From the NCBI RefSeq assembly GCF_947499265.1, contig NZ_CANMNK010000001.1, positions 581,001 through 645,000 of the forward strand: DNA of 64,000 nt. Reading direction: 5' to 3'. This DNA is from an uncultured Roseobacter sp. (GTDB lineage: Bacteria; Pseudomonadota; Alphaproteobacteria; Rhodobacterales; Rhodobacteraceae). The notes beneath the pieces are model-generated. The model saw nothing but the letters and a program-made list of their open reading frames with translations. It searched no databases and was not told the DNA's origin. The position numbers and the translations under genes were made by a program. Below are positions 10,015 through 39,466 of the stretch, in pieces (position 1 is the stretch's first letter; every line of letters starts with the position of its first letter).

Positions 10015-10038
10015 CAAGAGAAAAATATTTTTAGACAC

Positions 10039-10054
10039 TTAAAATTTGGTTAAC
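10039..10054. promoter_or_regulatory. CtrA full binding site 2
   Basis: A second exact TTAA-N7-TTAAC, 40 bases from the first, about four helical turns. Further GTTAAC palindromes without the full spacing are at 10094-10099 and 10274-10279. The 9943-10327 gap holds no gene that I can support. Confidence 0.7.
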
Positions 10055-10327
10055 GGTCATCATCAATGCCGAAAGTTTCATCAAACGGGCTGCGTTAACG
10101 AATTTTTCGGGGGTGCGTTAAGAAAATCAGGGTCGGATTACGCGTATGGCCTTGCTCAGTACAGCTCCAGGTTGCATTTCTGCTCGGCGGTAGATTGTTA
10201 CGGTCAGGCTGACCCAAGACCGCGCCAATTTAGTACGTATTCGAAATTGGTTTGGGCCAGAAATTCAGACCGCGTTAACGGCGATTTCTTAACCAGAGGG
10301 GAAAAGTTAAAAGAGAAGGGAAGTCTC

Positions 10328-10960: not shown

Positions 10961-10986
10961 GACATCGTTGCTGGAGCAATGGTTCA

Positions 10987-13074: not shown

Positions 13075-13401
13075 AGACTAAAAAATTGAGTGAGGTACGA
13101 AAAGTCACCTCAGGCCAACAAGCTCCAACCTCCGTAGACTGATGAGTAGCGTAATGCTGAAGTGATCAAGGGTGGCTCCGCCTTTATCATGAAAGTTTTT
13201 ATGTGCCTCTAACAAAGTCCGAACTGCTCCAGGCGGTTTTGACAAGAGCACCTAAGCTATCTGTTCAAGTCGGACTTGCGTTAAAATTGAAAGCTGCTTC
13301 TGGTTTGGTTTAATTGCGTGATGGTTCAAATGGGGCCAATATGGTCTGTTCCATTTGTCGCCTGTGCCACCGTGTCTAGAGTCCAAAAGAAGCGCGGTCT
13401 A
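13075..13401. other. Intergenic stretch without a supported gene
   Basis: Lower G+C than the neighbouring genes. A short hairpin, TGAGGT paired with ACCTCA (about 13090-13112), follows the c-di-GMP gene without a T-run. An inverted repeat AAGTCCGA/TCGGACTT (13215-13222 and 13270-13277) is separated by 47 bases. No coding potential is recognised. Confidence 0.5.
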
Positions 13402-14259
13402 TCATCGAAGCGGAGCCGCATTCAAACCGTATTTCTGTACACTTTCGGCCCATTCTTCAGAACGCTTCAATTGCAATATGGCCTCTTGGAGGAATTCATG
13501 CAGGGACTCTAAATGCGGTTGGACCATAATGTATCGTTGATAGGTGGAGTGAGGCTTTTTTGAAAAGTGAATCGCATCACTCAAATCTAGCTCTCTGACA
13601 AAGTAGCGTGCCGCTGAGTTGGCGATAATTGCGACCTGACCCCGACCGCTGGCGACGAAACGCATCAACTGGCCTTCAGCATTCAAGTCAATTCTGTCGA
13701 CAAGGCCCTCTTCCACCAATCCGTCGACTTCCGTATAGCTATGGCCTCTGACCCCAATCAGGGTCATGCCGTGAAGCGATTGCGGCCCTTCATACTGGAA
13801 TGACGCCCCCTTTGGTGAGACGATAACATTTTTGTCCGCCAGAATGGGATTGGTCCAAAGAAATCTGGTTCTGTCCGGGTCTCCGAACCAAACATGGTTC
13901 ACCCACAGCACAATTCCCGGGTCTCCGGACATGAAGCGTTTTTCCAGCCTTGGCCTCGGGAGTACTTCTACATTGAACTGAAAACGTCCGTCCGACATTT
14001 CGGTTAGCAACCGGACCAAATCATAGCTAATGCCTTCCTTTTCGGTTGCGTTCACAATGTAGGGCGGAAAGTTGTGATAAACCCAAACAGAAACCTCCTC
14101 GGCTGCTGCCCTTGCTCCAGCCGATATGGTTGTCGCGGCGAAGAGCAGAAGGAAAAAGAAGTGCCGTGCCCGGGCATTTTTTGAGTCGTGCTTGATTATC
14201 TTGACCTCCAAGTCAGTGTCCAAAGGCATGTCTGACTTTGATGGTCCCGTATACCGCAT
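13402..14259 (-). CDS. Periplasmic solute-binding protein, amino-acid type (SBP family 3-like)
   Basis: About 285 residues. After a charged N-terminus there is a signal-like stretch (HFFFLLLFAATTISAGARAAA, about 33-53), then VWVYHNFPPYIV, GISYDLVRLL and YTEVDGLVEEG, the pattern of PBPb/transporter substrate-binding domains. No permease or ATPase gene is adjacent, so it may act as a stand-alone receptor or be an isolated survivor in a decaying region. Start choice is uncertain: ATG at 14259 or 14229, neither with a strong ribosome site. The base composition is lower in G+C than the core genes here. Confidence 0.65.
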   Translation of the reverse strand: MRYTGPSKSDMPLDTDLEVKIIKHDSKNARARHFFFLLLFAATTISAGARAAAEEVSVWVYHNFPPYIVNATEKEGISYDLVRLLTEMSDGRFQFNVEVLPRPRLEKRFMSGDPGIVLWVNHVWFGDPDRTRFLWTNPILADKNVIVSPKGASFQYEGPQSLHGMTLIGVRGHSYTEVDGLVEEGLVDRIDLNAEGQLMRFVASGRGQVAIIANSAARYFVRELDLSDAIHFSKKPHSTYQRYIMVQPHLESLHEFLQEAILQLKRSEEWAESVQKYGLNAAPLR

Positions 14260-14783
14260 TTTCCGCGTTCCCAGAACTTGTTCTCCAACGTCAGAAGATA
14301 TTGCGCATTGGGGTGGTCGGGTTTTGGAGACTCAGGCTCGTTTATGTGATCGATCTTTCGCCTGTATCAGGTGCGTCTGCTTCAATATTTGGCACGCCAT
14401 ACCCCCGCCAGTTCACCATATGCTCAAGCGTCGCCTCGAACGCGCAGACAGAGTTTAGCAAGATTGTGGAGGGTGAGCGGGGACGGGAGCCATACGGGCA
14501 CTAAGACGCCTCTTAGACGCGCGTGGAGTGTCGAGTTCGAGGCGCTCCGCGCAGCGCTTATCCGAAGCGGTGGCCAAGTTTACAAAATTATATGCTGCGA
14601 GCAGACCAATCCAGACGGCACGTGTTTTGCGTGGTTCGACATGAGGTCGTTTCCTGCGTTACCGCTGCTGGTAGTTGCGAGGTCAAATCGAGGTTGCTAA
14701 CACATTCGCCCGCACATCGGCTTAACGACACGCGCAATGCAACCGGTTGAATTTAAAAGAACTCCTAAAGGTTCTGAGGCCGC
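14260..14783. other. Gene-free stretch
   Basis: Short open frames on the + strand overlap each other and resemble no family; their codon use is not like the real genes here. I see no RNA gene, repeat or promoter that I can support. Confidence 0.45.
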
Positions 14784-15338
14784 TCAGACCCTGGCGTGTC
14801 TTCGCACAAGCACAAGGCCACCCAGTCCACCAATCAGAAACGGGAGCGTCGCGGGCAGTGGCACTTCAGGCACGCTGGCTACGACGAACGAGCCACTCTG
14901 TTCAAACTCAGATAGGGTCGTCGCTGGCACATTCACCAAAATCCCGGTCAAGACCCCCGTGTCGAAGCTGCAAAGACCATCAATACAGAAATAGATCGCT
15001 TCTGTATCATCATCATTTCTAAAGCCGCCAATGAAGCCTGGCGCGCTCGCAGAAAAATCGAAGACCAGTTTGTCCTCCGTCAGAATCCACGGCGAACCCG
15101 TCCCGCGCACAAAGTCGTAATTCGGACCGACAAACGTGAAATCAAAGCCCGGAACCGATACGTTCAAGCTAAAATCCAGGAACTCATCAACGCCATCGAC
15201 CGCTCCCAGCGTGCCGTCGGTTGTGATGAAGCCGCCGACAGAAATGTCACCAGCGGTAAAGTCGACGTTGTAAGTAGTGGCATTGGCAGACGACGCAATG
15301 AATATTGCGGTTGCCGTTGCTAGGGCGGATTTGTACAT
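14784..15338 (-). CDS. VPLPA-CTERM sorting-domain protein
   Basis: Exported protein of 184 residues. An N-terminal signal peptide (MYKSALATATAIFIASSANA) is followed by a beta-rich, Asp/Gly/Phe-rich middle. The C-terminus is the tripartite sorting signal: EVPLPATLPFLI motif, a hydrophobic helix (GGLGGLVLV) and basic residues RRHARV. Such signals are recognised by an exosortase-type enzyme and mark proteins for the outer surface or exopolysaccharide matrix. No exosortase is in this window. The middle contains a single cysteine pair (FCIDGLCS). Function beyond surface export is unknown. Confidence 0.82.
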   Translation of the reverse strand: MYKSALATATAIFIASSANATTYNVDFTAGDISVGGFITTDGTLGAVDGVDEFLDFSLNVSVPGFDFTFVGPNYDFVRGTGSPWILTEDKLVFDFSASAPGFIGGFRNDDDTEAIYFCIDGLCSFDTGVLTGILVNVPATTLSEFEQSGSFVVASVPEVPLPATLPFLIGGLGGLVLVRRHARV

Positions 15339-15613
15339 GATTTTATCCCAAAATTGGATGACCGAAGCCGTATCTATGGTGCTTAGCGCAGCTACATAGA
15401 AGTGCCATCTCGGGCGCTGTGTCGATTGTCGGTGGCGAATTTGTCCGAAATATCACCATTTTTGTCCGATATGGAGCATGCGAGGCCTGTTTCAGGCTGA
15501 TCCTATCTGCATCGGATAAAAGCTATGGTGTGGTTTTCCAGTATGGGTCCGTTAGTCGCGACGCACTTGGGCATCTGCACTTTACCGTCATCAAACAAAG
15601 GACAGTTCGCAAC

Positions 15614-15760
15614 TCAATTCCAGAACGATGCGTCACGCGGCGCATCCAGCGGCATCTTATGCACCCGGGGGATAGCAAGAGCGTCCAGACGGCCCGTCAG
15701 CTCCAGCGCGTCAACCATGCTGCCAGCGATGGCGTACCCTTGGCCGCCGACGGGATCTAG
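15614..15760 (-). pseudogene. Orphan C-terminal coding fragment after the bactofilin gene
   Basis: About 47 codons with no usable start read HRLDPVGGQGYAIAGSMVDA and onward through RVHKMPLDAPRD to a stop at 15614-15616. Third positions are G+C-rich, as in real genes here, unlike the surrounding spacer. The reading frame differs from that of the bactofilin whose stop it overlaps. I take it as the tail of a lost gene that I do not recognise. The remaining 15339-15613 spacer holds nothing I can support. Confidence 0.4.
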
Positions 15761-16074
15761 CCTGTGCCGGTAATTTCGACTTTTCCCAAGACCTTCGCGC
15801 CACTCTCGGTGGTCATCGTCTCGGCTTTTACATCGGCCTGAACGCTGGATGTCGATGCAAACGTGACATCATCGCAATTCAGGCTGCCTTTGTGTTTACC
15901 TTCGATAACGATAGTCTTCGCAGACACCGCGCCCTCGATTGCTCCACCTGAGTTGATAACAACTGCGGTGGCAGTTACGTCCCCTAAAACGTTGCCTTTT
16001 ATTTCCACGCTTCCTTCATTTGACTTGATGTTACCCTTTATCGTCAGTTCACTTTGAATGATTGAGCTAGCCAC
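15757..16074 (-). CDS. Bactofilin-family protein
   Basis: 105 residues that are almost entirely the bactofilin beta-helix repeat: ELTIKGNIKSNEGSVEIKGNVLGDV, then SGGAIEGAVSAKTIVIEGKHKGSL. Bactofilins polymerise without nucleotides into cytoplasmic filaments that organise cell-envelope enzymes. It is short compared with most bactofilins (about 130-200 residues) and lacks long disordered tails. Neither the M23 peptidase nor other usual partners is adjacent. Confidence 0.8.
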   Translation of the reverse strand: MASSIIQSELTIKGNIKSNEGSVEIKGNVLGDVTATAVVINSGGAIEGAVSAKTIVIEGKHKGSLNCDDVTFASTSSVQADVKAETMTTESGAKVLGKVEITGTG

Positions 16075-16712
16075 TTTGAGTTCCTTTATATGGCAATCTC
16101 AGCGACAGTAGATTGTGGGCAATGTTAAGCACAGGTCGCTTGGAAATGAGCTGTGCTCTGAGCAAAAGGCCGCCAAAAGCCGTGAACCAGGTCAGCGGGA
16201 ATGGCTGCACGGTTGGTTACCTTCGTCGGTGGCAGCGTCCCATTAATGGCTAGTCACTTAGGTAGACGCAAGATTGGCTCAAAAGAGGAAAAGCCTGTCG
16301 CAAGGAAAAATCACGTGTCGTTTGGCAATTGGTGTCAGTAACGCATAAGAGTGCAATTTTTGACTCTCTCCAATCGAAAGAAACGTAACTAGCTGACAAT
16401 ATGAGAAAAATTACTACACTTTCGACCACCTAACCATATGTATACAGGCGAAACTCACAAGTTCGCAGAAATTCATGTGGGCCGAAAAGAAACACCCGTG
16501 AGCCCCAACTCAGTCATGGTGTGAATGTCACGTACGCTTGGCGAGGATTGAAAGAGATGTGCCTGAGATTCCTGCGTCGTCTGTCACGAATGGCCTTGCA
16601 AGAATTGGTTGCCAGCAAGCAGAAACTGCCTTCAAAGATTTCATACATGAGTTTTGGGGCAGCAGCGCGTACAGATCTGCCTTTCCAGTCCGATATTCAG
16701 CTGACGAACGGT
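16075..16712. other. Gene-free stretch
   Basis: A+T-richer spacer upstream of the bactofilin gene. Possible short frames on both strands between 16521 and 16847 overlap one another and match nothing that I recognise; none has a convincing ribosome site. Confidence 0.4.
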
Positions 16713-16991
16713 TCAGAGTCCGGCAAGACGCTTGATGCAAGAGTTGATAGCCGCTGCACCGTGAGCCGTTCCACCAAGCTTCTCGACTGGCCGTGCGCGT
16801 GGGAGCGCATCTTCGGGATTATTGCTAGAAGTGGCCTGGACGGGTGAAATTGAGTAAGCTCCAGGGGCCTGGATTTCTTGCATGCAAGAGTGTACGACTG
16901 ACTCTTCCTGACTAGGTGAGAATGTTGGGTGCACGGTACAGCCGGTTATGGTCAGAGCTGCAAATGATGCAACGAAAATGATCTCTTTCAT
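16713..16991 (-). CDS. Small predicted lipoprotein
   Basis: 92 residues beginning MKEIIFVASFAALTITGC: a short basic start, a hydrophobic run and an acceptable lipobox (ITGC) with Cys18 as the lipidation site. The mature part is Ser/Pro/Gln-rich with two further cysteines and has no recognised domain. An earlier ATG at 17024 would give a longer N-region (MKTKSHKFSWK). Neither start has a strong ribosome site, so the gene could be decayed. No operon partner is present. Confidence 0.45.
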   Translation of the reverse strand: MKEIIFVASFAALTITGCTVHPTFSPSQEESVVHSCMQEIQAPGAYSISPVQATSSNNPEDALPRARPVEKLGGTAHGAAAINSCIKRLAGL

Positions 16992-17622
16992 TTTCCAACT
17001 GAACTTGTGCGATTTCGTTTTCATCTGAGCGTGAAGTGTCTCGTGAAGTTGGCTGGCGTGAGGTCTTCGTGCGTTCACAAGGGAGCTTTGTTGGAACGTG
17101 GGATCTAGTCGGATCGATCCGTAACACCCCATTTCAGCATCTTTGGGAGATCGCGCTTGCTTCGATTGAATGAAGCACACAGCCCGAATGGCCGCCATTT
17201 CCGCCGCGTTGCAAATAAATTTGTTACCGTAGTGCAACAAGAATTCTTCAGCGAGTGCGTGCAGCAAGATTTGGACACTTCGCTATGGGTTCGGTGCGGA
17301 CTTTAGCGATCATAGGCAGAAGCAGCACAACTCCACCGCCTAGTTACTCCAGCAAACCCGCTTATCTGGGCTTCAAGGCCACATGCATTGCTGCGGGAAC
17401 AAGTGGGCGTGGTCCATGCCAACCAAAGCCTGCGCTTCGGCTTCGCTATCAGGACGCACGTATCCTTGCCGTATGTTAGGTATTTGCGGATCTGGATAGA
17501 TGCAGGCTTTCCAAACATTCATTTGGACATCTCGCTGAAACCAGTGTTAACGCCAAGCTAAATGCTGGTGGGCGGGAGAAAGCGCCTTTTCGCTGCGCTT
17601 GCGTGAATGTCAGCTTCTAACA
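16992..17622. other. Gene-free stretch
   Basis: I find no supported gene. Short open frames here lack ribosome sites and family resemblance. The base composition is lower in G+C than in the core regions. Confidence 0.4.
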
Positions 17623-18426
17623 CTAGCTAACTGTAAGCTCATCGATTGACGATGCCAGCTTCACTAGGTCGGCTTCATAAAAGCCGGCGGCATTGATGCA
17701 ATTCGTTTCAAGCATCTTCAATCCATCCTCGGTGCGACAGATGTCGATAACATAGGCGGGCGCGTAACTTGGGTTGGCCTCCACCAATCGCTTGGCAAAT
17801 TCTAAAGCGTCCTCATCAATTTCGTGTCGGTAAACGACGCGCGCGCCCACTTTATATAGAGAGTACTTGACAATCTCATCTCTTATCGCCCAAAGTAGCT
17901 ATTCTTTAAGCAAAGTAGCTATTCTCTAAGGATGCGAACGGGTTTGGTGAGCATCAATTCAGTATCGTGACGAATGAACCTTTAGGAATTTCGTGTTCTT
18001 CAAGCGCGAGCACCTTGTTAGCCAAATCAATGATTTCACCAGTAGACTTTACGTTTCCCGGCTCTTCTTTGCTGTCTTCTACTGGACGCAAGAACCATTA
18101 TGTCCCATCATCGGTAAGGTGCTCGGGAACATCTCGCAATGCTAAGAAAAGCGCATCCGCGCCGTTAAGAAGGAACGGGTGCCACGGTGCTTCATGGACA
18201 AAGGGCCTTACCTTGAAGACGCCGGGCTTCAGGCCATTGGCCTGTGCATATCGCCATAGGGTATAGGAACCGAACATGACCACGGCGTTCGGGTCACTAA
18301 CATCGGAGCGGGTGTCAGGTCACCTACGAAAGGAACAACTTTGTGCCATGTGTATGGAATTTCGAGCCGATCAAGTGCGTTAGCCATCTTCCGGGTGTCC
18401 TCAAAGTCCTGAAGTACCCATTCCAT
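17623..18426 (-). pseudogene. R2K-clade ATP-grasp protein (DUF4343-like), multiply disrupted
   Basis: Reading the minus strand from MEWVLQDFEDTRKMANAL (ATG 18426), the family can be followed to the stop at 17623 only by correcting several lesions. These are a frameshift near 18299-18301 (…PAPM then SDPNAVVMFGSYTLWRYA), an in-frame TAA between DDGT and WFLRPVEDSKEE (about 18098-18100), a frameshift near 17974 (GSF then RHDTELMLTKPVRI), and a TAG in the next segment next to a 20-base tandem duplication (17891-17930). The tail (YSLYKVGARVVYRHEIDEDA … MLETNCINAAGFY) is intact. The family carries out ATP-dependent ligation reactions on unknown substrates, often in phage or mobile contexts. Confidence 0.8.
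17891..17930. repeat. 20-base tandem duplication inside the ATP-grasp pseudogene
   Basis: CAAAGTAGCTATTCTTTAAG is followed directly by a copy differing at one base (17891-17910 and 17911-17930). Removing one copy restores the flanking reading frame into WAIRDEIVKY, so it is a recent duplication within the broken gene. Confidence 0.85.
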
Positions 18427-18762
18427 GTATCTGTGCGCAATTCTGATAATCTTTCTGCGCACCTAGAGAACACCATTCGGGCAAATGCTCAACAGCAGAT
18501 TTCCGAGCAGCGCATGATCTCGGTAGGTAAGGACTCATCGCAGACATTGACTTCTAATGTTTCATCTCCCGATGTCGGCAACGCAGGACTAACCTGCCTT
18601 TCGGAATTCATCGGTCGAAGTCTGCTTCCGAAGGCGCCAGCGACGCGTGCGGCGGCATTTAATATCGAGAGTACAGCCTGTCTCCCCGCCTCTTTCCGTC
18701 GTCTGTTTGGAGTTGTCCATTCGGGCGCCCAGTGAATGAAGCGCCTGAATGGGGAGATGGTG
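18427..18762. other. Spacer between pseudogene and binding-protein gene
   Basis: No supported gene. A 40-codon minus-strand frame beginning MNSERQVSPALP (about 18612 downwards) and an overlapping + strand frame are present but have no recognisable relatives. This is the 3' side of the hydantoin operon and the 5' side of the pseudogene. Confidence 0.35.
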
Positions 18763-20334
18763 TTATTCGCAGACCCACTTCATGGTGTGGAAGTTATACT
18801 CAAAACTCTGCATCGGCACCCATGTGAAGCCCTGCAGGCAGTTGTGGAACGCTTGCTGGCTGCGCTGGGTCAGCAGGAAGACCCCCACCTGATCTTTGAC
18901 CAGCTTGCGTTGCAGGTCCTTGTAGATCGCGTTTTGCTCTTCAACGTCCGCCGTGGCGCGCGCGGCATCGATCATCGCGTCAACCTCGTCGCTCAGCACC
19001 CATTCCATAGACGCCCAGGTTCCCGCCGCGCGGCTGTGGTATTGAGGAAAGAAGAATGTGTCGGGCGACGGATAGGTGGCGCCATAGAACACTTGGTTGA
19101 TCGCAGGCGTCGTTGCCACATCGCCCGCAAGTTCCGTCATCCGGTTCCACGGTTCAGGGCGAAGAATGGTGTTGAAGCCGATGGTGTCGAGGATCGATTT
19201 CATCAGCAGGCCAATCTCTTCTTCGAAAGCAAGGCCAGCAACATACATGATTTCCACATCAATCGGACCTTGCCCTGCGTAGCTGGATGCCTCGACATGT
19301 TCGCGCGCCTTTTCGAGGTTGAACTCCGGCATAGGAATGTCATCCGCAAAGGCGTCGGCAAAGATCGGCGCCATGGGGCCGGACAGCGGCTCACCCGGCA
19401 GAATCAACTCGCGAATGGTTTCGTAATCTGTGGCATAGGCGATCGCCTTGCGGATGTTTACATCATCCGTGGGGGCCCGGTGGTTGTTGAGCTTGAAGTA
19501 GAAATTCACCGCCGTCGCGTATTCCTCGATCCGGTAGTCTTCGAGCGCGCCGATACTGTCAAATGTTTCCTGCGCCTGGCTGTCGGCGGACATCGACAGT
19601 GTACCGGCAGCAGCGAGCGCCTTCACGGTTGCCTCTTCATTGGTGATGACAAAGCGTACTTCGTCGATGCTCTGTTCATCCCAGCCGAGATGATACCCTT
19701 CATAGGCCTTGATCGTCATGCTGGCACCGCGTTCCCAGCTGTCGAGCATGTAAGCTCCGGCCCCGACCGAGTTGCTGGCGACAAAGTCCTGCGCCCAGGG
19801 GTCGTCGTCGGTTGCATTCTCCGATGCCAGGTCAGCATTCACGACGAATAGAATAGGGGTTGTCGTCAGGAAGGGCGCATAGGTTTTTTCCAGCTGAAAC
19901 TGCACTGTGCGCGCGTCAACCTCAGTGACGGACCCTACACTGAGGATGCCTTCAAACAGATAGGCGGGGCCCTCATTGATGCTGAGCAACCGGTCGACTG
20001 ACCACACGACGTCCTTGGCTTCGATGGTGCTGCCATCCTGAAAGGTAGCGTCTTCTTTCAGCGTAAAAGTCCATGTCAGCCCGTCCTCGGACGCCATCCA
20101 GCTTTCGGCCAGAAGCGGCTGAATAGCGCCGCTTCCATCCAGCGTGGTCAGTCCCTCGTAGAGGTTCACACCGGCCATGTATTCGGTGTAATCGTTGATC
20201 TTTGCCGGATCGACGGTGCCGAAAATCTGGGTCGCATTGACCGTGATGACGTTATCAGCCGAAGCCATTCCTGCGCCAAGCAGCAAGGCCGATGCGGCCA
20301 CCGCACTTATGCCTTTCGATCTCAGGGTTTGCAT
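18763..20334 (-). CDS. Dipeptide/oligopeptide-type ABC transporter substrate-binding protein
   Basis: About 523 residues, family 5 extracellular solute-binding protein. Signal peptide MQTLRSKGISAVAASALLLGAGMASA is followed by mature DNVITVNATQIFGTVDPAK; LAESWMASEDGLTWTFTLKEDATFQDG and the region around VWSVDRL are the family signature. The ATG at 20334 follows GGAGGTACCAACA, so the in-frame ATG at 20421 is rejected. It is the last gene of the operon (27674 to 18763), 20 bases after a DUF917 gene, and supplies the receptor for the two permeases and the fused ATPase. The ligand is probably a hydantoin-, oxoproline- or heterocycle-like compound rather than a peptide (inference from neighbours). 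Confidence 0.9.
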   Translation of the reverse strand: MQTLRSKGISAVAASALLLGAGMASADNVITVNATQIFGTVDPAKINDYTEYMAGVNLYEGLTTLDGSGAIQPLLAESWMASEDGLTWTFTLKEDATFQDGSTIEAKDVVWSVDRLLSINEGPAYLFEGILSVGSVTEVDARTVQFQLEKTYAPFLTTTPILFVVNADLASENATDDDPWAQDFVASNSVGAGAYMLDSWERGASMTIKAYEGYHLGWDEQSIDEVRFVITNEEATVKALAAAGTLSMSADSQAQETFDSIGALEDYRIEEYATAVNFYFKLNNHRAPTDDVNIRKAIAYATDYETIRELILPGEPLSGPMAPIFADAFADDIPMPEFNLEKAREHVEASSYAGQGPIDVEIMYVAGLAFEEEIGLLMKSILDTIGFNTILRPEPWNRMTELAGDVATTPAINQVFYGATYPSPDTFFFPQYHSRAAGTWASMEWVLSDEVDAMIDAARATADVEEQNAIYKDLQRKLVKDQVGVFLLTQRSQQAFHNCLQGFTWVPMQSFEYNFHTMKWVCE

Positions 20335-20353
20335 TGTTGGTACCTCCGTTCTG

Positions 20354-21448
20354 TCAGTTTTTTGCGTTAATGTCTTCGATGGGTTGGTAGGGAATGTCGT
20401 AACCAAAGTATTTTGGCCCAACCAATTCCAGCCCGTGATCCGTGCGCCATTTCGGATCGCTGGGTAGGCCGAACACGATCACGCGGTAGCCATAGGCCAT
20501 CTGTTCTGTCGTGATCGGTTGCCCGGTTTCCAGATCGAGAAGGCAAATCAGATCAGGCGTAATCGCGGCAGGCGTGCCGTCTTCCTCCGCCAACAGGAAC
20601 TCGTTCTGGAATTTCAGTGTCAGGCTGCGGCCCTGATAGGCTTCCAGCCCTTCGATCACCGCCTGACCGCGGGCAAAGCCACCTTCGGTGCGCCGGTCCA
20701 CATCTGTGACGCGCCCCTCGAAGAGGCGCATGCCGCCCAGATCGGCGGCCAGCCTGTCGGCAGGGTTGCGATTGGCGGTTTGTTCAGCGGTGATGATCCG
20801 CCCGATGCTGGCGATCAGCGACAGGGAGTCCGGCAGGATTGCGCGTTTCGCCTGCGCCCCGGTCATCGGGTAAAGCGCGATCAGCCCGGCGCCACCCATT
20901 TCAACGGTAATGACGCGGGCAAACTTCTCCGTCGACAGATTATCGACGGTGTTGAGCACCAGCGCGTTGCCCTTCTCGTCTGCCATGGCCATCGGGCAGG
21001 CGTGGACATCAAACATCGTCATCGACACCATCTGCAGTTCAGGAAAGGCACGCCCCATGCCGTCACCATCCACGATGGGCAAACCTGCCGCAGCCGCGAC
21101 CGCGATGGGAATGGTCGAATTCAAACCACCGGCCTCGATGCAAAAAATGGCATCTGCCTTGCGACCAAGCACCGCCTCGAGCGAGCGCAGCGCTGAGATT
21201 GCCTCGTCGCCGCGCGGGAGCTTTTCGAGCATAACTGTTGGCGCCCCCATCATCGCGACCGGCACAATAAGAGCGTCATCATCAAGCGAAGCGATCCCGA
21301 TGACCGGGACCGGGCCGTTTTCGCCAATGGCCTGTTCTGCCATCAGCTTGCCAATGTAAGGGTCTCCACCGCCTCCGGTACCGAGAAAGGCGCCACCTAG
21401 GGCGACATCCGCCATGTCCGCGCGTGTGATCGTCTTGATCTTTTCCAT
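20354..21448 (-). CDS. DUF917 protein (S-methyl-thiohydantoin desulfurase family), copy 2
   Basis: 364 residues. N-terminal glycine-rich motif GTGGGGDPYIGK (about 23-34), then VDGDGMGRAFPE (about 125-136), and a C-terminal domain with FQNEFLLA and DLICLLDLETGQPITTE. These are the two conserved blocks of DUF917, members of which act on thiohydantoin-type rings in heterocycle catabolism. Its start overlaps the stop of the other DUF917 gene (TAATG at 21448), so they are translated as a pair. The two copies are clearly homologous but well diverged, suggesting a heteromer or two successive reactions rather than a recent duplication. Confidence 0.88.
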   Translation of the reverse strand: MEKIKTITRADMADVALGGAFLGTGGGGDPYIGKLMAEQAIGENGPVPVIGIASLDDDALIVPVAMMGAPTVMLEKLPRGDEAISALRSLEAVLGRKADAIFCIEAGGLNSTIPIAVAAAAGLPIVDGDGMGRAFPELQMVSMTMFDVHACPMAMADEKGNALVLNTVDNLSTEKFARVITVEMGGAGLIALYPMTGAQAKRAILPDSLSLIASIGRIITAEQTANRNPADRLAADLGGMRLFEGRVTDVDRRTEGGFARGQAVIEGLEAYQGRSLTLKFQNEFLLAEEDGTPAAITPDLICLLDLETGQPITTEQMAYGYRVIVFGLPSDPKWRTDHGLELVGPKYFGYDIPYQPIEDINAKN

Positions 21449-22539
21449 TACGACGTCTCCATCGGGGTGAACGTGATGTCGTCATATCCAAAGGCCGCGG
21501 GCCCCACGACGGCCAGTGCTTCGGGTGAGCGCATGAGCGGGTGGGCCGGAAGGCCCAGCACGGCGATCCGCTGTCCGTAGCGCAGCATTTCGGTGGTGAT
21601 CGGTAGCCCTGTGTCACTGTCGAGCACGACAACCAGATCGGGCGTGCACACCTCGACATTTCCATTGCGCCGAAAGACCAGAAACTCGTTCTGCAGATCA
21701 ATCCGCCCGGTGTCGCCCGCAAAAGCACCAAACCCTTCCAGCGCCAGATGGCCCACCGCAAAGCCCCCTTTGAGGTGCCGTTCGAGATCGACAATTTTGG
21801 CCGTCATTAGCAACCGGCCACGCTCCTGATTGATGACCGTCTGAACCGGGTCGGCATTGGTCTGATGCGCGTTCAGCACGGCCCGGCCCAGGTTGAGCGC
21901 CTGCGTAATTGTTCCCGGAATGGCGGCGCGTTTGACGAATGCGCCGCGCATGGGTTGGGTCGCAAGGCCCGCCGCAGCCCCCATGGTCACCACAACCGCG
22001 CGCGCGATACGTTCCAGCCAGATGTCGTCCGGCGTGTCACGGATCACCACGATGGATCCCTTTTCGTCAGCCATGGCGGCCGGGGCCTCACGGTGTCCGT
22101 AGATCGACCAAGTGCACATCTGCATCTCGGGAAATGCGCGGCCCATGCCGTCGCCGTCTACCACGGGCAATCCAGCTTGCGCCGCCGTCAACATCGGTTC
22201 CATCGAGTTGGCGCCGCCAATCTCGACCGAAATCAGCGCATCCACCGGTTTTCCCACTTCGCGTTCGACTGCGCGCAGGGCGCGCAGGCACTCCTCGCCT
22301 TCCTCGATCTTTTCAACGCCCACCACCGGCGCGCCGATGCCGCCCAGCGATACGACCAGCGCGTCGTCTGGCAGTTCCTCTAGCGGGATCACGGGAATGC
22401 GTCTCCCCTTTTTCAATTCCTCACGGCAGCGGAGCTTGCCGATATAAGGGTTACCGCCTCCCCCCGTTCCAAGGATGGCCGCTCCGATTTCGATTGCATC
22501 GAGATCGGCATTGGTGACTTCTCGTAACCGCTCAGCCAT
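21448..22539 (-). CDS. DUF917 protein (S-methyl-thiohydantoin desulfurase family), copy 1
   Basis: 363 residues with the same architecture: GTGGGGNPYIGK (about 24-35), VDGDGMGRAFPE, then LQNEFLVF and DLVVVLDSDTGLPITTE. It overlaps the hydantoinase gene by eight bases at its start and the second DUF917 gene by one base at its end. No signal peptide or membrane segment is present, so it is cytoplasmic. Family known, substrate inferred only as a hydantoin-like compound. Confidence 0.88.
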   Translation of the reverse strand: MAERLREVTNADLDAIEIGAAILGTGGGGNPYIGKLRCREELKKGRRIPVIPLEELPDDALVVSLGGIGAPVVGVEKIEEGEECLRALRAVEREVGKPVDALISVEIGGANSMEPMLTAAQAGLPVVDGDGMGRAFPEMQMCTWSIYGHREAPAAMADEKGSIVVIRDTPDDIWLERIARAVVVTMGAAAGLATQPMRGAFVKRAAIPGTITQALNLGRAVLNAHQTNADPVQTVINQERGRLLMTAKIVDLERHLKGGFAVGHLALEGFGAFAGDTGRIDLQNEFLVFRRNGNVEVCTPDLVVVLDSDTGLPITTEMLRYGQRIAVLGLPAHPLMRSPEALAVVGPAAFGYDDITFTPMETS

Positions 22540-24076
22540 TCATGTCACCGACGACTTTGAGGCGGATTCGCGTGGCATTGCCGGGAAGATAGGCTAGCGG
22601 CACGTCCTCTTGATCCAAAAGCTCGATGCTGTCTGGTCTGGCACCGGCGGCGATGGCCTTGTCAGTCGCCTCCTTGCGGGCGTCGTTCAGCGCCTCCTCG
22701 CGTGATTTGCTTTCCAGCGAGAAAATGCGATCCACCTCGCCTGAAATCTGGCCGATCGCCGCACCAACCGCATTCGCGACAGAAAAATGTTCAGGCCTGA
22801 TAACCGGTAAGTCGCCTACCTGTTCCGGCACAAGGATGGACCCGCCCCCAACCGCCAGCACCGGGATCGGATCAGGCGACACACGCATCCGTTCGACCGC
22901 GTTGAGCAACATGTTGTCGGTGTGCGCCTTGACGGCCTGCATGTGATCCGGTGACACGCCGGTTAGCGCGGATGTGTCGCCGAAATCAGCAAGACCAAGG
23001 CCCACGGCGATATCGGAGGTGGTCAAGGTTTTGCCGCCAAAGATCAGGGCCTCTTGCGTCAATCGGTAGCCGACGGATTTCGGGCCAACGCTCAGAGGTT
23101 CTCCCTCGGCGCTGACAATCGTACCGCCGCCCAGTCCAATGGCAAAGACATCGGGCATGCGGAAATTCGTGCGGACCCCGCCCACATCAACCGTGGTGCT
23201 GGCCGGGCGCGGGAAGCCTTTAACCAAAGCGCCGACGTCCGTGGTTGTTCCGCCCACATCCACAACGATGGCCTCGGTCTTGCCGGATAGGAAGGCAGCG
23301 CCGCGCATAGAGTTGGTGGGGCCGGACGCAAAGGTCAGCACGGGGTACGATTGTACGAAATCGCGATTCATCAGCGTGCCGTCATTCTGCGTGATGAAAT
23401 AGGGGCAGGTCACACCCACCTTTTCCAGCGCCCGACCAAAGGCATCCACGGTCCGTTCTGACAGGGCTCGCAGCGATGCATTCATGATTGCTGCATTCTC
23501 GCGTTCCAGAATGCCCAGACGTCCGATCTCGCTCGACAAAGTGAAGCTGGCATCTGGCAGGCGCTCGGCAAGGCGCGCCATCGCTGCGCGCTCCATCTCG
23601 TCGCTGACCGGCGAAAACACGGATGTGATGGCGATGGTGTCGATCCCCGCTTCGCCGATCTCGGCGGCGATGGTGTCGATCTCGGCCATGTCGAGCGCTG
23701 AAATCTTGCGGCCATCGAATTCGTTGCCACCTTTTGCCATCCAGAAGTGGCCACCGACGGCCTCGCACATGTCATCGGGCCAGTCTACCATCGGGGGCAG
23801 GCACTGCGCGGCGGGCAGGCAAAGACGGACGGCGGCTGTTCGCGCAATATGACGGCGCTCAACCACGGCGTTGGTGAAGTGGGTCGTGCCAATCATCACC
23901 GCTGTGACACCTGACTTTTCGATGCCAGCGTCGGTTATCGCGCGTTCGACCGCATCGACCACGCCCCCCATCACGTCTTCGGTCGTGGGTGATTTCACAC
24001 CGGACAGAATCTGATCGCCCTGCATCACGACAGCATCCGTATTCGTGCCGCCAACATCGACGCCAATTCGAAACAT
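22532..24076 (-). CDS. Hydantoinase/oxoprolinase family protein (HyuA-like)
   Basis: 514 residues. N-terminal ATP-binding motif GVDVGGTNTDAVV (about 5-17) and a second phosphate-binding loop VVDVGGTTTDVGAL near 270 are the actin-fold signatures of hydantoinase A/oxoprolinase. Members hydrolyse hydantoin, N-methylhydantoin or 5-oxoproline rings using ATP. It is shorter than the 690-residue HyuA type and has no HyuB partner; such short forms are found with DUF917 proteins. It abuts the ATPase gene (24077) and overlaps the first DUF917 gene, placing ring opening in the centre of the transport operon. Confidence 0.9.
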   Translation of the reverse strand: MFRIGVDVGGTNTDAVVMQGDQILSGVKSPTTEDVMGGVVDAVERAITDAGIEKSGVTAVMIGTTHFTNAVVERRHIARTAAVRLCLPAAQCLPPMVDWPDDMCEAVGGHFWMAKGGNEFDGRKISALDMAEIDTIAAEIGEAGIDTIAITSVFSPVSDEMERAAMARLAERLPDASFTLSSEIGRLGILERENAAIMNASLRALSERTVDAFGRALEKVGVTCPYFITQNDGTLMNRDFVQSYPVLTFASGPTNSMRGAAFLSGKTEAIVVDVGGTTTDVGALVKGFPRPASTTVDVGGVRTNFRMPDVFAIGLGGGTIVSAEGEPLSVGPKSVGYRLTQEALIFGGKTLTTSDIAVGLGLADFGDTSALTGVSPDHMQAVKAHTDNMLLNAVERMRVSPDPIPVLAVGGGSILVPEQVGDLPVIRPEHFSVANAVGAAIGQISGEVDRIFSLESKSREEALNDARKEATDKAIAAGARPDSIELLDQEDVPLAYLPGNATRIRLKVVGDMNG

Positions 24077-25777
24077 CTAGGTGTCCTCCAGTTCTGTTGA
24101 GGTGGCAAGCACAGCGGCCCGCTCCTCCTTGCTGACAATGGGTTTGAGCGCGTCTTCTTCAGGGGAGATCACAGGAATCGCCGACAGTAGTGCGCGCGTG
24201 TAAGGATGGCCCGGCGTGTCGAAAATCTCCGCGACCGGACCGGTTTCGACGACCTCACCGCGCAACATGACAGCGACGCGGTTGCAGAAATTGCGCATGA
24301 GGCTGAGGTCGTGGCTGATGAAGATATAGGTCAGATCAAATTCGCGCCGCAGATCATGCAAAAGGTCGATCACCGTGGATTGCACAAGAACGTCAAGCGC
24401 CGAGGTCGGTTCGTCCAGCACAAGGATCTTTGGGTTCACCGACAGCGCGCGCGCGATGGCAACCCGCTGCTTTTGCCCGCCGGACAATTCATGCGGATAC
24501 ATGGCCGAATAGTTCTGCGGCAATTCCACGAGGTCGAGCAGTTCTGAAATGCGGCGATTGATTGACGGCTTGTCAAAGCCGGTGAACTTCAGCGGGACCG
24601 CCAATTGATCGCCCACCGTTCGGCGCGGGTTCAGCGACGAGCCCGGATTTTGATAAACGATCTGTATGAGCTTGCGAAATTCCTGCGTGCCCGCGAACCC
24701 GTCCAGCGATCGTCCGTCGATCTGCACCGCGCCCTTGGTGGGGGCGGTCAGCCCCATGATGATCTTGGCCAGCGTCGTCTTGCCGGAGCCGCTTTCACCA
24801 GCGATCCCGAAGATGTCGCCCTGCTGGACGGTCAGAGACACGTCGTTCACCGCTCGGAAACTGCCGGTGACCCGATTGAGCCAACCGCTACGCGTCTCGA
24901 AGTCCTTTGACACGGATGCAACATCGACAATCGGCTGAGTACCCTCATGTTCGGTGGTCTTGACGCCATCGCCATAAAGCGGCGGCACTGCGGCCATCAA
25001 TTCGCGGGTGTAGGCGTGCTGCGGGGCGTCAAAAATCTCGTCGCGCGTGCCGGTTTCGACGATATGGCCGCGCTCCATCACGTAGACCCGGTCAGCCATC
25101 TCGCGCACCACGCCGAGGTTGTGGGTGATCAGCAGAAGCGACAGCCCCTCTTCCACCACCAGCCGGTTGAGCAGCGCGAGGATTTCGTCCTGTGTGGTCA
25201 CGTCGAGCGCGGTACCCGGCTCATCCGCGATCAGCAGGCGCGGCTTGTTCAACAGAGCCATCCCGATCAACACACGCTGGCGCATCCCACCCGACAGCAT
25301 CATCGGATAGCTGTCGAGAACACGGCCGCCATCCCTGAGCTGTACCTTGTTCAGCGTCTCAATCATATGTGTGCGACGGTCCGCCCGGGAACGCGAATTT
25401 CTGAGCCGCAGGTCGCCGTAGCGGATGACATCATCCATCTGCCGCCCGATGGTCAGCACCGGGTTGAACGACAGCATCGGGTCCTGCAGGACAATCGAGA
25501 TGCCTATGCCCTTCAGCCGATTACGGTCCTGCTTGTTCAGATCGAGCAGTGATTGACCGTTATAGTAAATGCTGCCCTGTTCGACCTTGCCCGGCGGCAT
25601 CGGCAGGGTCCCGATGATCGTGCGCATGGTCACGGTCTTGCCTGAGCCAGACTGCCCGATCAGCGAAACCCGCTCGCCTTCGTTCACATGCAAATCGACG
25701 TTGTGCAGCACACGCCGGTGCTGACCGTAGGCGTCGAACCCGATGCACAGGTCGCGGATATCCAGAAGCGGGTTCAT
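24077..25777 (-). CDS. Fused double ATP-binding subunit of a Dpp/Opp-type ABC importer
   Basis: 566 residues containing two complete ABC ATPase domains, equivalent to DppD plus DppF. First half: Walker A GQSGSGKT (41-48), signature LSGGMRQRV, Walker [13 protein letters not shown]. Second half: Walker A GESGSGKT (about 329), signature LSGGQKQRV, Walker [13 protein letters not shown]. Oligopeptide-specific C-terminal tails follow each half ([21 protein letters not shown]). The start overlaps the permease stop by four bases and the stop touches the hydantoinase start. Confidence 0.93.
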
Positions 25778-26655
25778 AATTCGACATCCAGCATGTCGCG
25801 CAACCCGTCACCCAAGAGGTTGAAACCGAGGATCGCGTAGAGAATTGCCAGGCCCGGCATCACCGCCTGCCACCACATCTCGGGCAGATATTCGGACCCG
25901 GTGGCGACCATCGTGCCAAGGTCCGGGGTCGGCGGTTGCACACCCAGCCCGAGAAATGAAAGTGCTGCGCCAAAGAGGATGACAAAACCCGCGTCAAGCG
26001 AGATCTTGACGGCCACCGCAGAAAAGCAGTTGGGGAGCAATTCCCGGAACAGGATATGGGCGTGAGACGCCCCTGCGACGCGGGCGGCCTCGACGTAGTC
26101 TTCGTTCATCTGGCCCTTCACTATCCGGTAGATCAAGCGGGTGTGCCAGGTCCACCAAAGAAGCGTGATCGCGATCATCGCATTGATCAGATTTGGCGAC
26201 AGAACCGCGGTGATTGCCAGCGCCATAGCAAGCGGCGGCAGGGCCAGCATGATGTCGGTGAACCGCATAATGATGGTTTCCGTCCAGCCACCGAAATACC
26301 CAGCGCAGAGACCGAGTATGACGCCGAACGGCACCGCAACCCCCAGAACACCCACGACCAGTCCGAGCGAGACCCGGTAACCAAAGATGACCCGGCTGAA
26401 CACGTCGCGCCCGACGTTGTCGGTACCCATGAGGTTATCCCAGTTCGGTGGGCTGTGCCGATTGCGAAAGTCGACAAAGGACCCCGCACTTTCCGGCGCC
26501 GGGGCGATCCAGGGTGCGAAAACCGCCGCGAGGATAACGCTGAACACGATCAGCGTGCCGACAACCGCCAACGGGTTGCGACGGAAGCGATATAGAGCCA
26601 TCTGGCGCGCAGTCAGCCCGTGGACCGGGGCGTCGGGATCGTTCATCGCGCTCAT
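25774..26655 (-). CDS. ABC transporter permease (DppC type)
   Basis: 293 residues: the OppC-type N-terminal segment (YRFRRNPLAVVGTLIVFSVILAAVFAPWIAP), the luminal MGTDNVGRDVFSRVIFGYRVSLGLVVG hallmark, about six membrane segments and the EAA loop DYVEAARVAGASHAHILFRELLPN. It overlaps the upstream permease and the downstream ATPase by four bases each, so all three are coupled. Confidence 0.93.
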   Translation of the reverse strand: MSAMNDPDAPVHGLTARQMALYRFRRNPLAVVGTLIVFSVILAAVFAPWIAPAPESAGSFVDFRNRHSPPNWDNLMGTDNVGRDVFSRVIFGYRVSLGLVVGVLGVAVPFGVILGLCAGYFGGWTETIIMRFTDIMLALPPLAMALAITAVLSPNLINAMIAITLLWWTWHTRLIYRIVKGQMNEDYVEAARVAGASHAHILFRELLPNCFSAVAVKISLDAGFVILFGAALSFLGLGVQPPTPDLGTMVATGSEYLPEMWWQAVMPGLAILYAILGFNLLGDGLRDMLDVEL

Positions 26656-27674
26656 GCCCCACGCCCCGCCCGAATACGGTGTCGGGGATCGAGGATGCCA
26701 AGCAGCAGATCGATGGTCAGGTTGGCGACGACGAAGAACACGCCGGAGACCAGCACGACCCCGATCACTGCATTAAGGTCCTTCTGCAGGATCGTGCGCA
26801 CGCCATAGCTGGCAATGCCAGGCCAGGAGAAGACGAACTCGACAATGAAGGCATTGCCAATAAGTGAGGCGAATTCCAGCCCGAGAATGGTCAACGGTGC
26901 CACCGAGGCAACGCGCAGCATGTAGCGGAACGTCACCACGCGTTCTGGTATGCCGTAAGCCCGCGATGCCTCGACGAAATCGCGCGAGGCGACCTCGATC
27001 ATCGCTGTACGGGTGATACGCATCACTTGCCCTATGCCAGCAGCAGCCAAAGCAATCGCCGGCAGGAATAAATGCCGCAGCGCGTCGACAACGACGTCGA
27101 AGCGTCCAGCAATCAGCCCATCAATGGTCAGAAGCCCCGTCACATCTGCGGAAAAACCGATACCGGGGTCGAGGCGTCCCGTCACAGGGAAGAATCCCAG
27201 GTAGTGCGCTGCAATCAGTTGCAGAATAATCGCCAGGACGAACCCCGGGGTGACCACACCCAAAAGGGAAATCACCCGTAGAACGCTATCAATCCATGTA
27301 TTACGGTAAATGGCGGCGATAACCCCGAGTGGGATCGAAATCAGAACCTGCAAAACGACCGTGAAAAGCACGAGTTCGAACGTGGCGGGCAAAGCACCCA
27401 TGATGTCATCCATCACCGGACGCGATGTCAGAAGCGACTTGCCCAGATCGCCTTGGACCAGTCCGCTCAGATAGGTCCACAGCTGCACCGGATAGGGATC
27501 ATTGAGGCCCATTTCCTCTTGCAACTGAGAGACCTGTTCAGCGGTCGCCAAAGGCCCCAGCGCGATACGCGCAGGATCGCCCGGAACAATCCGCGCGATC
27601 ACGAAGATCAGAACGGCGAGTCCCAAGAGGACAAAAAGAAGCGTAAATGTGCGTCTGAAAAGATAAGCGAACAT
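26652..27674 (-). CDS. ABC transporter permease (DppB type)
   Basis: 340 residues with the DppB/OppB pattern: MFAYLFRRTFTLLFVLLGLAVLIF as first membrane segment, VPGDPARIALG, LQEEMGLNDPYPVQLWTYL and the EAA loop DFVEASRAYGIPERVVTFRYMLR. I start at ATG 27674 (GGGGAAATCTTG ahead of it) because it begins directly at the first membrane segment. It is the first gene of the operon, 80 bases downstream of the LuxR-type regulator. Confidence 0.92.
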   Translation of the reverse strand: MFAYLFRRTFTLLFVLLGLAVLIFVIARIVPGDPARIALGPLATAEQVSQLQEEMGLNDPYPVQLWTYLSGLVQGDLGKSLLTSRPVMDDIMGALPATFELVLFTVVLQVLISIPLGVIAAIYRNTWIDSVLRVISLLGVVTPGFVLAIILQLIAAHYLGFFPVTGRLDPGIGFSADVTGLLTIDGLIAGRFDVVVDALRHLFLPAIALAAAGIGQVMRITRTAMIEVASRDFVEASRAYGIPERVVTFRYMLRVASVAPLTILGLEFASLIGNAFIVEFVFSWPGIASYGVRTILQKDLNAVIGVVLVSGVFFVVANLTIDLLLGILDPRHRIRAGRGA

Positions 27675-27754
27675 CAAGATTTCCCCAGGGGAACCTTGGA
27701 CGACGGATACCAAAGCAGGCATCCAGAATTTAGTCGAATACTGATCTAAAAAGT

Positions 27755-29242
27755 CTAGAAATACTGAAAAGCTTCTAAATTTGACATTAAATCAATAAGT
27801 TGAATTCTATTCGAAACACCCGCCAGTCGGTACACGGATGTCAAATGATACTTCACCGTTGCCTCCGAAATGCCCAATTGTCGGGCAACCTGCTTGTTAG
27901 ATGAGCCCGATTGCAGTGCTGCGGCGACTCGGTATTGCCGGCTGTTAAAGCCTAGAGCCTTTAGTTCTTCAGGCACCACATAGCTTTGCTCGACGGCCCG
28001 TACAATTTGTCTGGCCAGACGAGACAGGGGGATGTTGCCACGCAGGAATTGGCCGGAGGTCATGCGCGCACTTGCGCCCAGAAAAACGTCCCTGTGTTCG
28101 ATAAACGGCGCGATCTGCCGTTCCTCCAGCGCCAACCTCATCGCGCGTTCGATATGCTGTCGTCGAAGTTTCCCGCGCACGCGTTGCGCATCTTGAAGCG
28201 CAGCCACAATGGCACCTCTTGGCGTGGCGGAGGGGGCAGGCTCCTTGAGACGCAATGCGGTTTGCAGCTCATCCCGAACAATTTGACCAATCGAACTGTG
28301 GATCGGGGCGGCATCAAGTGCCTCAAGCTGCCGCTCGGCTTCGTTGGGATGCCATTCAAGATGCGATACCTGCGCCTGCAGCACATCAATGGTGAGCGGG
28401 GCGCCGCTGTGACGGCGGGCATAATCGGCCTGATATGTCTCAAGCTCAATCTGCGCGGCCTGCCGACCTTCCAGGAAATAGGTGCTCATGACACCGATGC
28501 GCGCCAGCTGGTAGAAAAGCTCTGACCAACTGTCGCCGGTCAACAGGCTGTTGCGCAGATCGGGCGCGCGTTGCCGGACGCGTTCCAGATTTCCGCGCTC
28601 ATACTCGATTGCCAGGCGGATGACCTCAATGACCTCTTCTTCGTTTCCGTATCGGGTGCGAGACACTTCCAGACACCGCTCCGCCGTCCGCAGCCCGCGC
28701 GCCGCGCGCCGCAATCGACCGTCCACGACATCGAGATCAGCCAGATGGATATGAATGAAGTGCTCCAGATAGGAGTGACCATCCTCGCGGTAGCACGAAA
28801 TCGCCTGCTGACCGGCCACCCGAGCGTCCTCCAGCCGCAGCAGGCGCACAAGCATCGCCATCATGGCGTTATAATAGAGCCCCTGTAGTAATGCGTTCGA
28901 GATCGGCAGGGCGCGTTCCAGCCTGCGCCATGACGCAAGTTTGTTGTCGCTGACAGGTTCACCAAGATGAAGGGCCAGCAACAAATCCAGTAACTCGAAC
29001 TGGTAGGTCTTCTCAAACTCCAAGTTGACAGCATGCAAATAGGATTTCGCGCGGGAGGCCTGACCGGACTTCAAAAGGTGCATGACCAGACCGCCTAGCA
29101 CTGCCTCGTCCTGACGCCACTCATCGGGCTGCAACTTGTCGAGGAGATGCGCAAGCTTGGCGTATCCGTGGCGAAACGGGTAAATAAGCCCGCCACCCCT
29201 GATGAACTCTTTACGAGCCTCTGATGCGTCAGCTGCCGGCAT
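27755..29242 (-). CDS. Large LuxR-family (MalT-like) transcriptional regulator
   Basis: About 495 residues. The bulk (about 30-400) is helical with TPR-like regularity and no visible nucleotide-binding motif; the C-terminus (about 415-475) is a LuxR-type helix-turn-helix (SSNKQVARQLGISEATVKYHLTSVYRLAGVSNR). It resembles MalT-type regulators lacking the ATPase domain. It precedes the transport/hydantoinase operon in the same orientation, so it is the obvious candidate regulator. Start is uncertain: ATG 29242, or TTG 29299, which would add 19 residues. Confidence 0.82.
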   Translation of the reverse strand: MPAADASEARKEFIRGGGLIYPFRHGYAKLAHLLDKLQPDEWRQDEAVLGGLVMHLLKSGQASRAKSYLHAVNLEFEKTYQFELLDLLLALHLGEPVSDNKLASWRRLERALPISNALLQGLYYNAMMAMLVRLLRLEDARVAGQQAISCYREDGHSYLEHFIHIHLADLDVVDGRLRRAARGLRTAERCLEVSRTRYGNEEEVIEVIRLAIEYERGNLERVRQRAPDLRNSLLTGDSWSELFYQLARIGVMSTYFLEGRQAAQIELETYQADYARRHSGAPLTIDVLQAQVSHLEWHPNEAERQLEALDAAPIHSSIGQIVRDELQTALRLKEPAPSATPRGAIVAALQDAQRVRGKLRRQHIERAMRLALEERQIAPFIEHRDVFLGASARMTSGQFLRGNIPLSRLARQIVRAVEQSYVVPEELKALGFNSRQYRVAAALQSGSSNKQVARQLGISEATVKYHLTSVYRLAGVSNRIQLIDLMSNLEAFQYF

Positions 29243-29299: not shown

Positions 29300-29934
29300 A
29301 CCGCAAGACTATGTCCATCAAGAGGTATCGATCTTGAACCTATGTGCGTCGTCGGCTGATCGAAGAATTGCCGCGAGTGCGCCGATGGGTCGAAGCGATT
29401 TCAAAATATTGGTTTGAAACGTTAGTCGTGGAATTAGCGGGTGCCCCACAGCGGACACTAGCGAGTTGTGAAGCATGCGTTGCTTTGGGCTCACAGCGGA
29501 CACTGGTTAGATCCGCCCGCTGCGCAGAACAGCTGTTGTGACCAGGCCAAGCCCGTCCTAGCGTCAGTAGAATATGCTGAGCTCGTATTGTCAGGTTTTG
29601 TCATATGTCGGGTGGAACGGTTCAGCGTGTACGGCGACCAACAGACGTGAATTCATAGTACCTTGAATCAAGTCAAAACGCAGCGCTTCGTCCCCCAGCA
29701 ACACAACGACAGGGCGGGCAACAAGTTACCGCGCGCCAAGTTAGTGATATTATTTATGTAAGATGACACGAAGTTTGGCTCCTAGAATTTCATTATATAT
29801 TTATAATTCAATATTTTAGCCTTACAGCGCCGACAGCAGTTTGGAACTTTTCGAAAGGAAGTGTGTCGCTTTGCAGTTCAAAAAAAACGCGGTGCGCATT
29901 CTGTCTAACGTCATCTCTAATGGGACAGTTTAGG
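29300..29934. other. Gene-free, A+T-rich stretch
   Basis: No supported gene. A 13-base direct repeat CACAGCGGACACT occurs twice about 45 bases apart (near 29447 and 29492). The later part (29740-29830) is markedly A+T-rich. The stretch ends at a transposase fragment. Confidence 0.45.
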
Positions 29935-30179
29935 CTAATTAGACAGCCGCCGTTCGGACCGAATTCCGAAGCAGTAGCCAACAAGAAGCATGCGGATCAA
30001 AAGCTCAGGATCGACTGAAGGACGGCCTGTGTGGTTGTAGAACTCCGCAAGATGCGTCCGAATACTGCTCAGGTCGACGAAGCGATCAATCGGCCGCAAC
30101 AGGTGATCTTGGGAACATGGTCTTCCAGCGAGAACTCGTAGAACAGCGCAGCTTGCGCCTCTTGCCTCGGTCCCAACAT
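29935..30179 (-). pseudogene. Transposase fragment (IS1182-type), N-terminal part only
   Basis: From ATG 30179 the minus strand reads MLGPRQEAQAALFYEFSLEDHVP; after a one-base deletion (near 30107-30110) it continues QDHLLRPIDRFVDLSSIRTHL and GRPSVDPELLIRMLLVGYCFGIRSERRL, the N-terminal DUF772-type region of IS1182-like transposases. The match stops near 29940, leaving about 80 of an expected 350 or more residues and no catalytic domain. It is a dead remnant showing past mobile-element activity. Confidence 0.85.
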
Positions 30180-30259
30180 CGCCAATCCCTCCCTACAGAA
30201 AGAATTGAATCAGCGGTTAGTGCACCAATCAAAGAAGACTTTCTCAACAAAATACGCCC

Positions 30260-30967: not shown

Positions 30968-31043
30968 TGGTGAGCCGTGCAGGATTCGAACCTGCGACCC
31001 ACTGATTAAAAGTCAGTTGCTCTACCAACTGAGCTAACGGCCC
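30968..31043 (-). tRNA. tRNA-Lys (anticodon TTT)
   Basis: A 76-base cloverleaf on the minus strand: acceptor GGGCCGT paired with ACGGCTC, D-arm with AGCTCAGTTGGTAGAGC, anticodon arm CTGACTTTTAATCAG (TTT), T-arm GGTTCGAATCC, and an encoded CCA end (30968-30970). Its 3' end points towards the decayed region at lower coordinates. Confidence 0.97.
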
Positions 31044-39399: not shown

Positions 39400-39466
39400 C
39401 GTTTTGCCTTTGCGATGTGTCGTATTTTCTCTTGCAGGCTTTGATACAGATTGGCAAGCTGGCGGC

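Follow-up and report, generated by a model that had tools for sequence, protein, structure and literature searches.

In the classic oxoprolinases, hydantoinases and caprolactamase, cyclic amides are activated by ATP, and the ATPase subunit of the HyuA type is paired with a partner subunit, HyuB or CapB. A separate protein family, formerly DUF917 and now represented by the Pfam domains S-Me-THD_N and S-Me-THD_C, includes the thiohydantoin desulfurases (NF058529) and S-methyl thiohydantoin desulfurases (NF058532), whose chemistry is taken here from the NCBIfam names. In a 64,000-nucleotide stretch of an uncultured Roseobacter sp. (contig NZ_CANMNK010000001.1, positions 581,001 to 645,000; the whole stretch is hereafter called the window), an operon at 18763..29242 combines a short HyuA protein with two DUF917 proteins, designated DufA and DufB, and with an importer of the Opp/Dpp/Nik type. 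We consider it probable that this operon imports a small cyclic amide and opens its ring by a two-part ATP-dependent hydrolase, in which DUF917 would take the place of HyuB or CapB.

The operon lies on the minus strand. Its first gene is of the LuxR type, and the seven genes behind it, whose starts were picked by eye from the sequence, are closely packed. The seven genes encode two Opp/Dpp-type permeases, PermB (26652..27674; BPD_transp_1 and BPD_transp_1_N) and PermC (25774..26655; BPD_transp_1 and OppC_N), a fused DppD-DppF-like ATPase of 566 amino acids with two ABC_tran and two oligo_HPY stretches in one chain (24077..25777), the short HyuA of 514 amino acids, presumed to be the substrate-phosphorylating subunit (22532..24076; Hydant_A_N, 116.3 bits; Hydantoinase_A, 108.1 bits), DufA (21448..22539; S-Me-THD_N and S-Me-THD_C), DufB (20354..21448) and a periplasmic binding protein (SBP) of the SBP_bac_5 family (18763..20334; PF00496, E 2e-65). 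PF06032 and PF20906 match both DufA and DufB at 195-231 bits, compared with a gathering score of 27, and these two proteins are the only PF06032 matches in the whole genome (E 0.001). By their coordinates, the ATPase/PermC and PermC/PermB junctions overlap by 4 bases each; the ATPase stop codon TAG directly abuts the ATG of HyuA (overlap 0), HyuA and DufA overlap by 8 bases (ATGGCTGA), DufA and DufB share the sequence TAATG, and SBP starts 19 bases downstream of DufB. A first-pass annotation had described seven closely overlapping minus-strand genes from permease to binding protein, including two TAATG-coupled DUF917 genes, and this description holds in place and junctions, with small corrections of the starts. 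The LuxR-type gene (27755..29242, from the ORF list; GerE helix-turn-helix, E 3.2e-12) encodes 495 amino acids from the ATG at 29242, a TTG start at 29299 also being open to give 514 amino acids, and its product presumably regulates the operon. All component domains of an Opp/Dpp/Nik ATP-binding cassette (ABC) importer are present, namely SBP_bac_5, two BPD_transp_1 permeases and two ABC domains, as expected from the Dpp-type importer first proposed. The nearest full-length NCBIfam models for the fused ATPase are YejF and GsiA, both scoring under cut-off, and the best solved relatives of SBP are AgaA (6hlx) and other peptide- and nickel-type binders, all weak and mixed matches below 83 bits.

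The GTDB genome collection was scanned once with a short-HyuA alignment, which yielded at least 565 HyuA relatives among at least 595 pattern matches, and neighbours were called in the best 80 loci and in the earlier loci. Locus counts refer to the window and these best 80, without L048, L052, L055 and L077, where no HyuA was called (n = 77). Qingshengfaniella alkalisoli (L003) is annotated with the identical gene set in identical order, and a genome of the same genus as the window (L107) carries all eight genes in order at 56-91% identity, including a LuxR-type homologue at the equivalent position (56% identical). That both genomes share these genes and their order indicates that the grouping is beyond chance. 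The operon order is also kept in the closest group (L009, L011, L012), where the LuxR gene is not at the L009 locus and the operons of L011 and L012 start with the permease; the core genes are reordered in Chloroflexota (L021, L024, L026), in an Acidiferrobacteraceae contig (L034) and in Haloferax (L007). The operon is real, and conservation of the gene set in relatives supports its initial description as a single transport-catabolism unit. Since HyuA was found in only 1 of 18 other genomes of the window's genus (E 1e-60), the operon is patchy within the genus. In Qingshengfaniella, the first permease was matched in two pieces (L003, 5835-6768).

DUF917 lies within 6 kb of the short HyuA in 74 of the 77 loci, and within 200 bp in 55. 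Furthermore, a joined-query search for DUF917 within long proteins returned 41 proteins, 20 of which match both HyuA and DUF917 profiles; 13 of these are full-length fusions of 947-1052 amino acids, HyuA followed by DUF917, with both halves covered. The adjacency and the 13 natural fusions together make it very probable that HyuA and DUF917 act as one enzyme, as the first-pass annotation had also supposed, presumably in a complex.

According to the source labels, taken as given, the fusions come from an alga (Coccomyxa viridis, two proteins), a nemertean (Lineus longissimus), an amoeba (Balamuthia mandrillaris), corals (Stylophora pistillata, Acropora cervicornis) and a fungus (Paramyrothecium foliicola), the others being two eukaryote transcriptome records and four proteins without a name. 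All fifteen residues checked are present in eight of the 13 fusions, and the other five show one change (P0142, P0149), two (P0157), four (P0160) or five (P0159). Every fusion scores better against DufA than against DufB, and ten group with DufA-clade rows in the tree described below (local support 93). No function for them was found in the literature searched. Other long proteins join DUF917 to NCS1, SBP_bac_5, racemase or TonB-receptor domains in 1 to 5 sequences each, and these may be artefacts, as may the metagenome open reading frames (ORFs) that join it to the latter three kinds of domain (P0131, P0132, P0134, P0137).

A FastTree tree was built from 162 DUF917 rows, 157 from the loci and five desulfurase-type rows for comparison. 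The comparison rows separate with support 100, and the remainder comprises a DufA clade of 44 rows, a DufB clade of 109 and 4 rows outside both. A split into DufA and DufB clades is the likeliest reading of this tree, in which the local support of the DufA clade is 84 and FastTree readily joins long branches. Residues were counted, in DufA numbering, over the DufA clade and a 53-row core of the DufB clade, with the other 56 DufB-clade rows left out. Positions conserved in at least 93% of these rows include E76, E106, N111, D128, D130, R134, E138, D158, E176, R180, R254, Q283, N284 and E285. Both DufA and DufB keep the invariant set, and neither therefore gives the impression of an inactive subunit. 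The comparison rows, which are only 23-26% identical, so that the alignment is possibly off locally, share D128, R134, R180, N284 and E285; E176 occurs in one of the five, and E76, E106, N111, D130, E138, D158, R254 and Q283 occur in none.

These differences bear on a possible role of DufA and DufB in an ergothioneine-type pathway, as desulfurases of thiohydantoin or S-methyl-thiohydantoin, which their shared Pfam families and S-Me-THD-like names would suggest. Against NF058529 (cut-off 440), DufB scores 81.5 and DufA 109.4 bits, compared with 603.9 for the comparison protein L103; against NF058532 (cut-off 450), they score 114.7 and 110.8 bits, and the nearest comparison protein, L098, reaches 408 bits and is itself under the cut-off. 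The four comparison rows other than L098 lie above the NF058529 cut-off. Of ergothioneine catabolism the desulfurase step was searched for, and neither family gave a match in this genome at limits of 1e-100 and 1e-90. Such low scores, the separate clade and the eight invariant residues absent from all comparison rows make a desulfurase role very improbable. The module had at first been described as ring-opening or desulfurising; the second term is abandoned on these grounds, and the argument for a thiohydantoin substrate falls with it, whereas ring opening remains the likeliest activity, judging from the HyuA family.

When the Opp loci were sorted by DUF917 type as called, 19 of 28 held both DufA and DufB, six DufA only, one DufB only and two no DUF917 within 6 kb (L047, L058). 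A tblastn recheck found both proteins in L010 and L018, and DufA with the start of DufB at a contig end in L030, which brings the pair to 22 of 28. Among 19 loci with NCS1 and no Opp, 18 held DufB only and one DufA only; the 30 loci with another or no transporter comprised 19 with DufB only, six with DufA only, two with both and three with neither. Pairs of DUF917 genes are therefore associated with Opp-type import, although the common ancestry of the alphaproteobacterial loci inflates this association.

We postulate that the Opp-type importer brings in a small cyclic amide and that the short HyuA, predicted to have an actin-like ATPase fold, would phosphorylate this amide on its lactim oxygen. 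The activated ring would then pass to a DUF917 protein, which would hydrolyse it with release of phosphate and a linear product, either an amino acid or a peptide. In both a phosphorylated lactim and an S-methylated thiohydantoin, a ring C=N carbon carries a leaving group, so a fold able to hydrolyse the latter could act on the former once HyuA has produced it. DufA is closest to the partner that is fused with HyuA in eukaryotes, and DufB, with the same invariant residues, may be a second ring-opening subunit with another specificity or one half of a heteromer. Two phosphate motifs are kept in 95 and 94 of 95 short HyuA proteins, which by alignment correspond to the D7 and D273 regions of the window protein. 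Several observations weigh against the proposed mechanism. The adenosine motif GxxPGP occurs in none of the 95 short HyuA proteins, so that nucleotide binding must differ; in the alignment it is present in CapA and N-methylhydantoinase, and also in three of eight more distant HyuA-like ORFs (L009, L034, L040). No HyuB is found among the eight operon proteins, and four are encoded elsewhere in the genome, so a HyuA-HyuB partnership could operate in trans. Among the invariant residues of DUF917 there is no histidine that could form a zinc site like that of CapB, and no activity of any HyuA-linked DUF917 is known in the literature searched.

The substrate is not fixed by anything within the operon. 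The families of neighbouring genes were noticed first and counted afterwards, and the counts are raw numbers. Within the cyclic-amide reading, one serious candidate, which we still place below even chances, is a cyclic ureide such as a 5-substituted hydantoin, whose opening would give an N-carbamoyl amino acid. Asp/Glu/hydantoin racemase homologues (PF01177) in 10 of 80 loci and NCS1 permeases (PF02133) in 19 of 77 speak for it, as does the best-scoring solved relative of HyuA, an N-methylhydantoinase. However, the operon contains neither a racemase nor a carbamoylase, an M20-type carbamoylase is absent among the listed families that match at least two of 115 hand-picked neighbouring ORFs (114 from 271 listed and one from L096), and Opp-type importers are unusual for hydantoins. 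Of the hydantoin or thiohydantoin first suggested as substrate, hydantoin is thus retained as one candidate among several.

A cyclic dipeptide (diketopiperazine) would suit an oligopeptide-type importer, and HyuA/DUF917 would then be an ATP-dependent cyclodipeptidase, another narrower form of the cyclic-amide reading, which we regard as somewhat unlikely. Opp-type importers occur in 28 of 77 loci, and cyclodipeptide-oxidase (CDO)-like genes in two of 80: L058 combines HyuA, a racemase, Opp genes and two DUF917 with a fused CDO-like protein (PF00881 and PF19585), and in L083 (Archaeoglobus) separate homologues of both halves adjoin HyuA/DUF917. Dipeptidase-type neighbours comprise M19 in L080, M24 in L056, L060, L063 and L067, and Asparaginase_2 in L027, L029 and L031, again as raw counts. 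In PMC11055893, DUF917, hydantoin racemases and Opp-type transporters are reported around CDO genes, with DUF917 and Opp-type transporters enriched, but its authors favour hydantoin- or allantoin-like substrates. Moreover, the window genome gave no match to the CDO B subunit (PF19585) at E 0.001, and the operon contains no peptidase. A third proposal, that the importer carries a metal chelate or a linear peptide while the three catalytic genes work on unrelated compounds, agrees with the about equal resemblance of SBP and the permeases to peptide and nickel transporters; it is improbable given that the genes stay together, ordered in Alphaproteobacteria and reordered in other phyla.

Xanthine-dehydrogenase-like subunits lie beside the core in L043, L044, L049, L056, L063 and L067. 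In L056, L063 and L067, HyuA and DUF917 are accompanied by these subunits and by luciferase-like monooxygenase, M24 peptidase, threonine-synthase-like and SDR genes, sets that possibly represent a longer N-heterocycle pathway. In the Rhizobium/Agrobacterium loci L027, L029 and L031, a second, diverged DUF917-HyuA pair and the Asparaginase_2 gene stand directly behind the Opp-HyuA-DufA-SBP genes.

A broader and more speculative proposal, which we think unlikely as a whole, is that HyuA/DUF917 constitutes an undescribed class of ATP-dependent cyclic-amide hydrolases, acting in Opp-type operons as an ATP-driven cyclodipeptidase for eating diketopiperazines and retained as a fused protein in certain algae, corals, worms, amoebae and fungi. 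PMC3852281 describes knowledge of diketopiperazine degradation as scant, and if the enzyme does open these or other stable cyclic amides with ATP, a poorly understood step would be filled in. The earlier suggestion of a new route stands in that no account of the function of the HyuA/DUF917 module was found in the literature searched; the core of the cassette, with its many HyuA relatives, is nevertheless common, and the HyuA/DUF917 pair is found in numerous bacteria and in some archaea.

Outside the operon, a tRNA-Lys (TTT) gene (30968-31043, minus strand) adjoins it, and GC content is 49-53% at 10001-18000 compared with 55-63% in the other 2-kb bins. This looks like an island edge; no second copy of the tRNA end was found in the window. 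A minus-strand stretch upstream of the LuxR gene (29900-30200) resembles a degraded transposase, and broken minus-strand reading frames downstream of SBP (17600-18500) resemble the remnant of an ATP-grasp gene. Rfam models identified an FMN riboswitch (39463-39621, plus strand) and a TPP riboswitch (43362-43463, minus strand).

Among described systems, the non-CDPS CDO gene clusters of PMC11055893 share DUF917 and Opp-type transporters with this operon but contain CDO, whereas the window genome has no CDO-like gene. The predicted structure of DufA (pLDDT 95.6) has one clear solved relative, 2o3i (CV_3147 of Chromobacterium violaceum, 25% identical), deposited as a hypothetical protein. The desulfurases belong to the same DUF917 family as the HyuA-linked proteins, and in both groups the point of attack would be a ring C=N carbon with a leaving group; the two differ in clade, invariant residues and scores. 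The S-Me-THD name of this widespread family invites desulfurase annotation, and the present evidence splits off a large HyuA-linked branch, marks it by a set of residues, proposes a role for it that can be tested and draws attention to its fused copies in eukaryotes. The eukaryotic fusions have both halves of the operon pair, mostly of DufA type, in one polypeptide instead of separate genes. Finally, the CapAB caprolactamase, 5-oxoprolinase and N-methylhydantoinase share with the operon the HyuA fold, the phosphate-binding motifs and, as expected here, ATP activation of a cyclic amide, whereas the operon HyuA is shorter than CapA (514 against 696 amino acids), lacks GxxPGP and is accompanied by DUF917, of a different fold, instead of HyuB. 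The system is thus a conserved two-part enzyme cassette whose chemistry is of a known kind and in which one subunit has been replaced.
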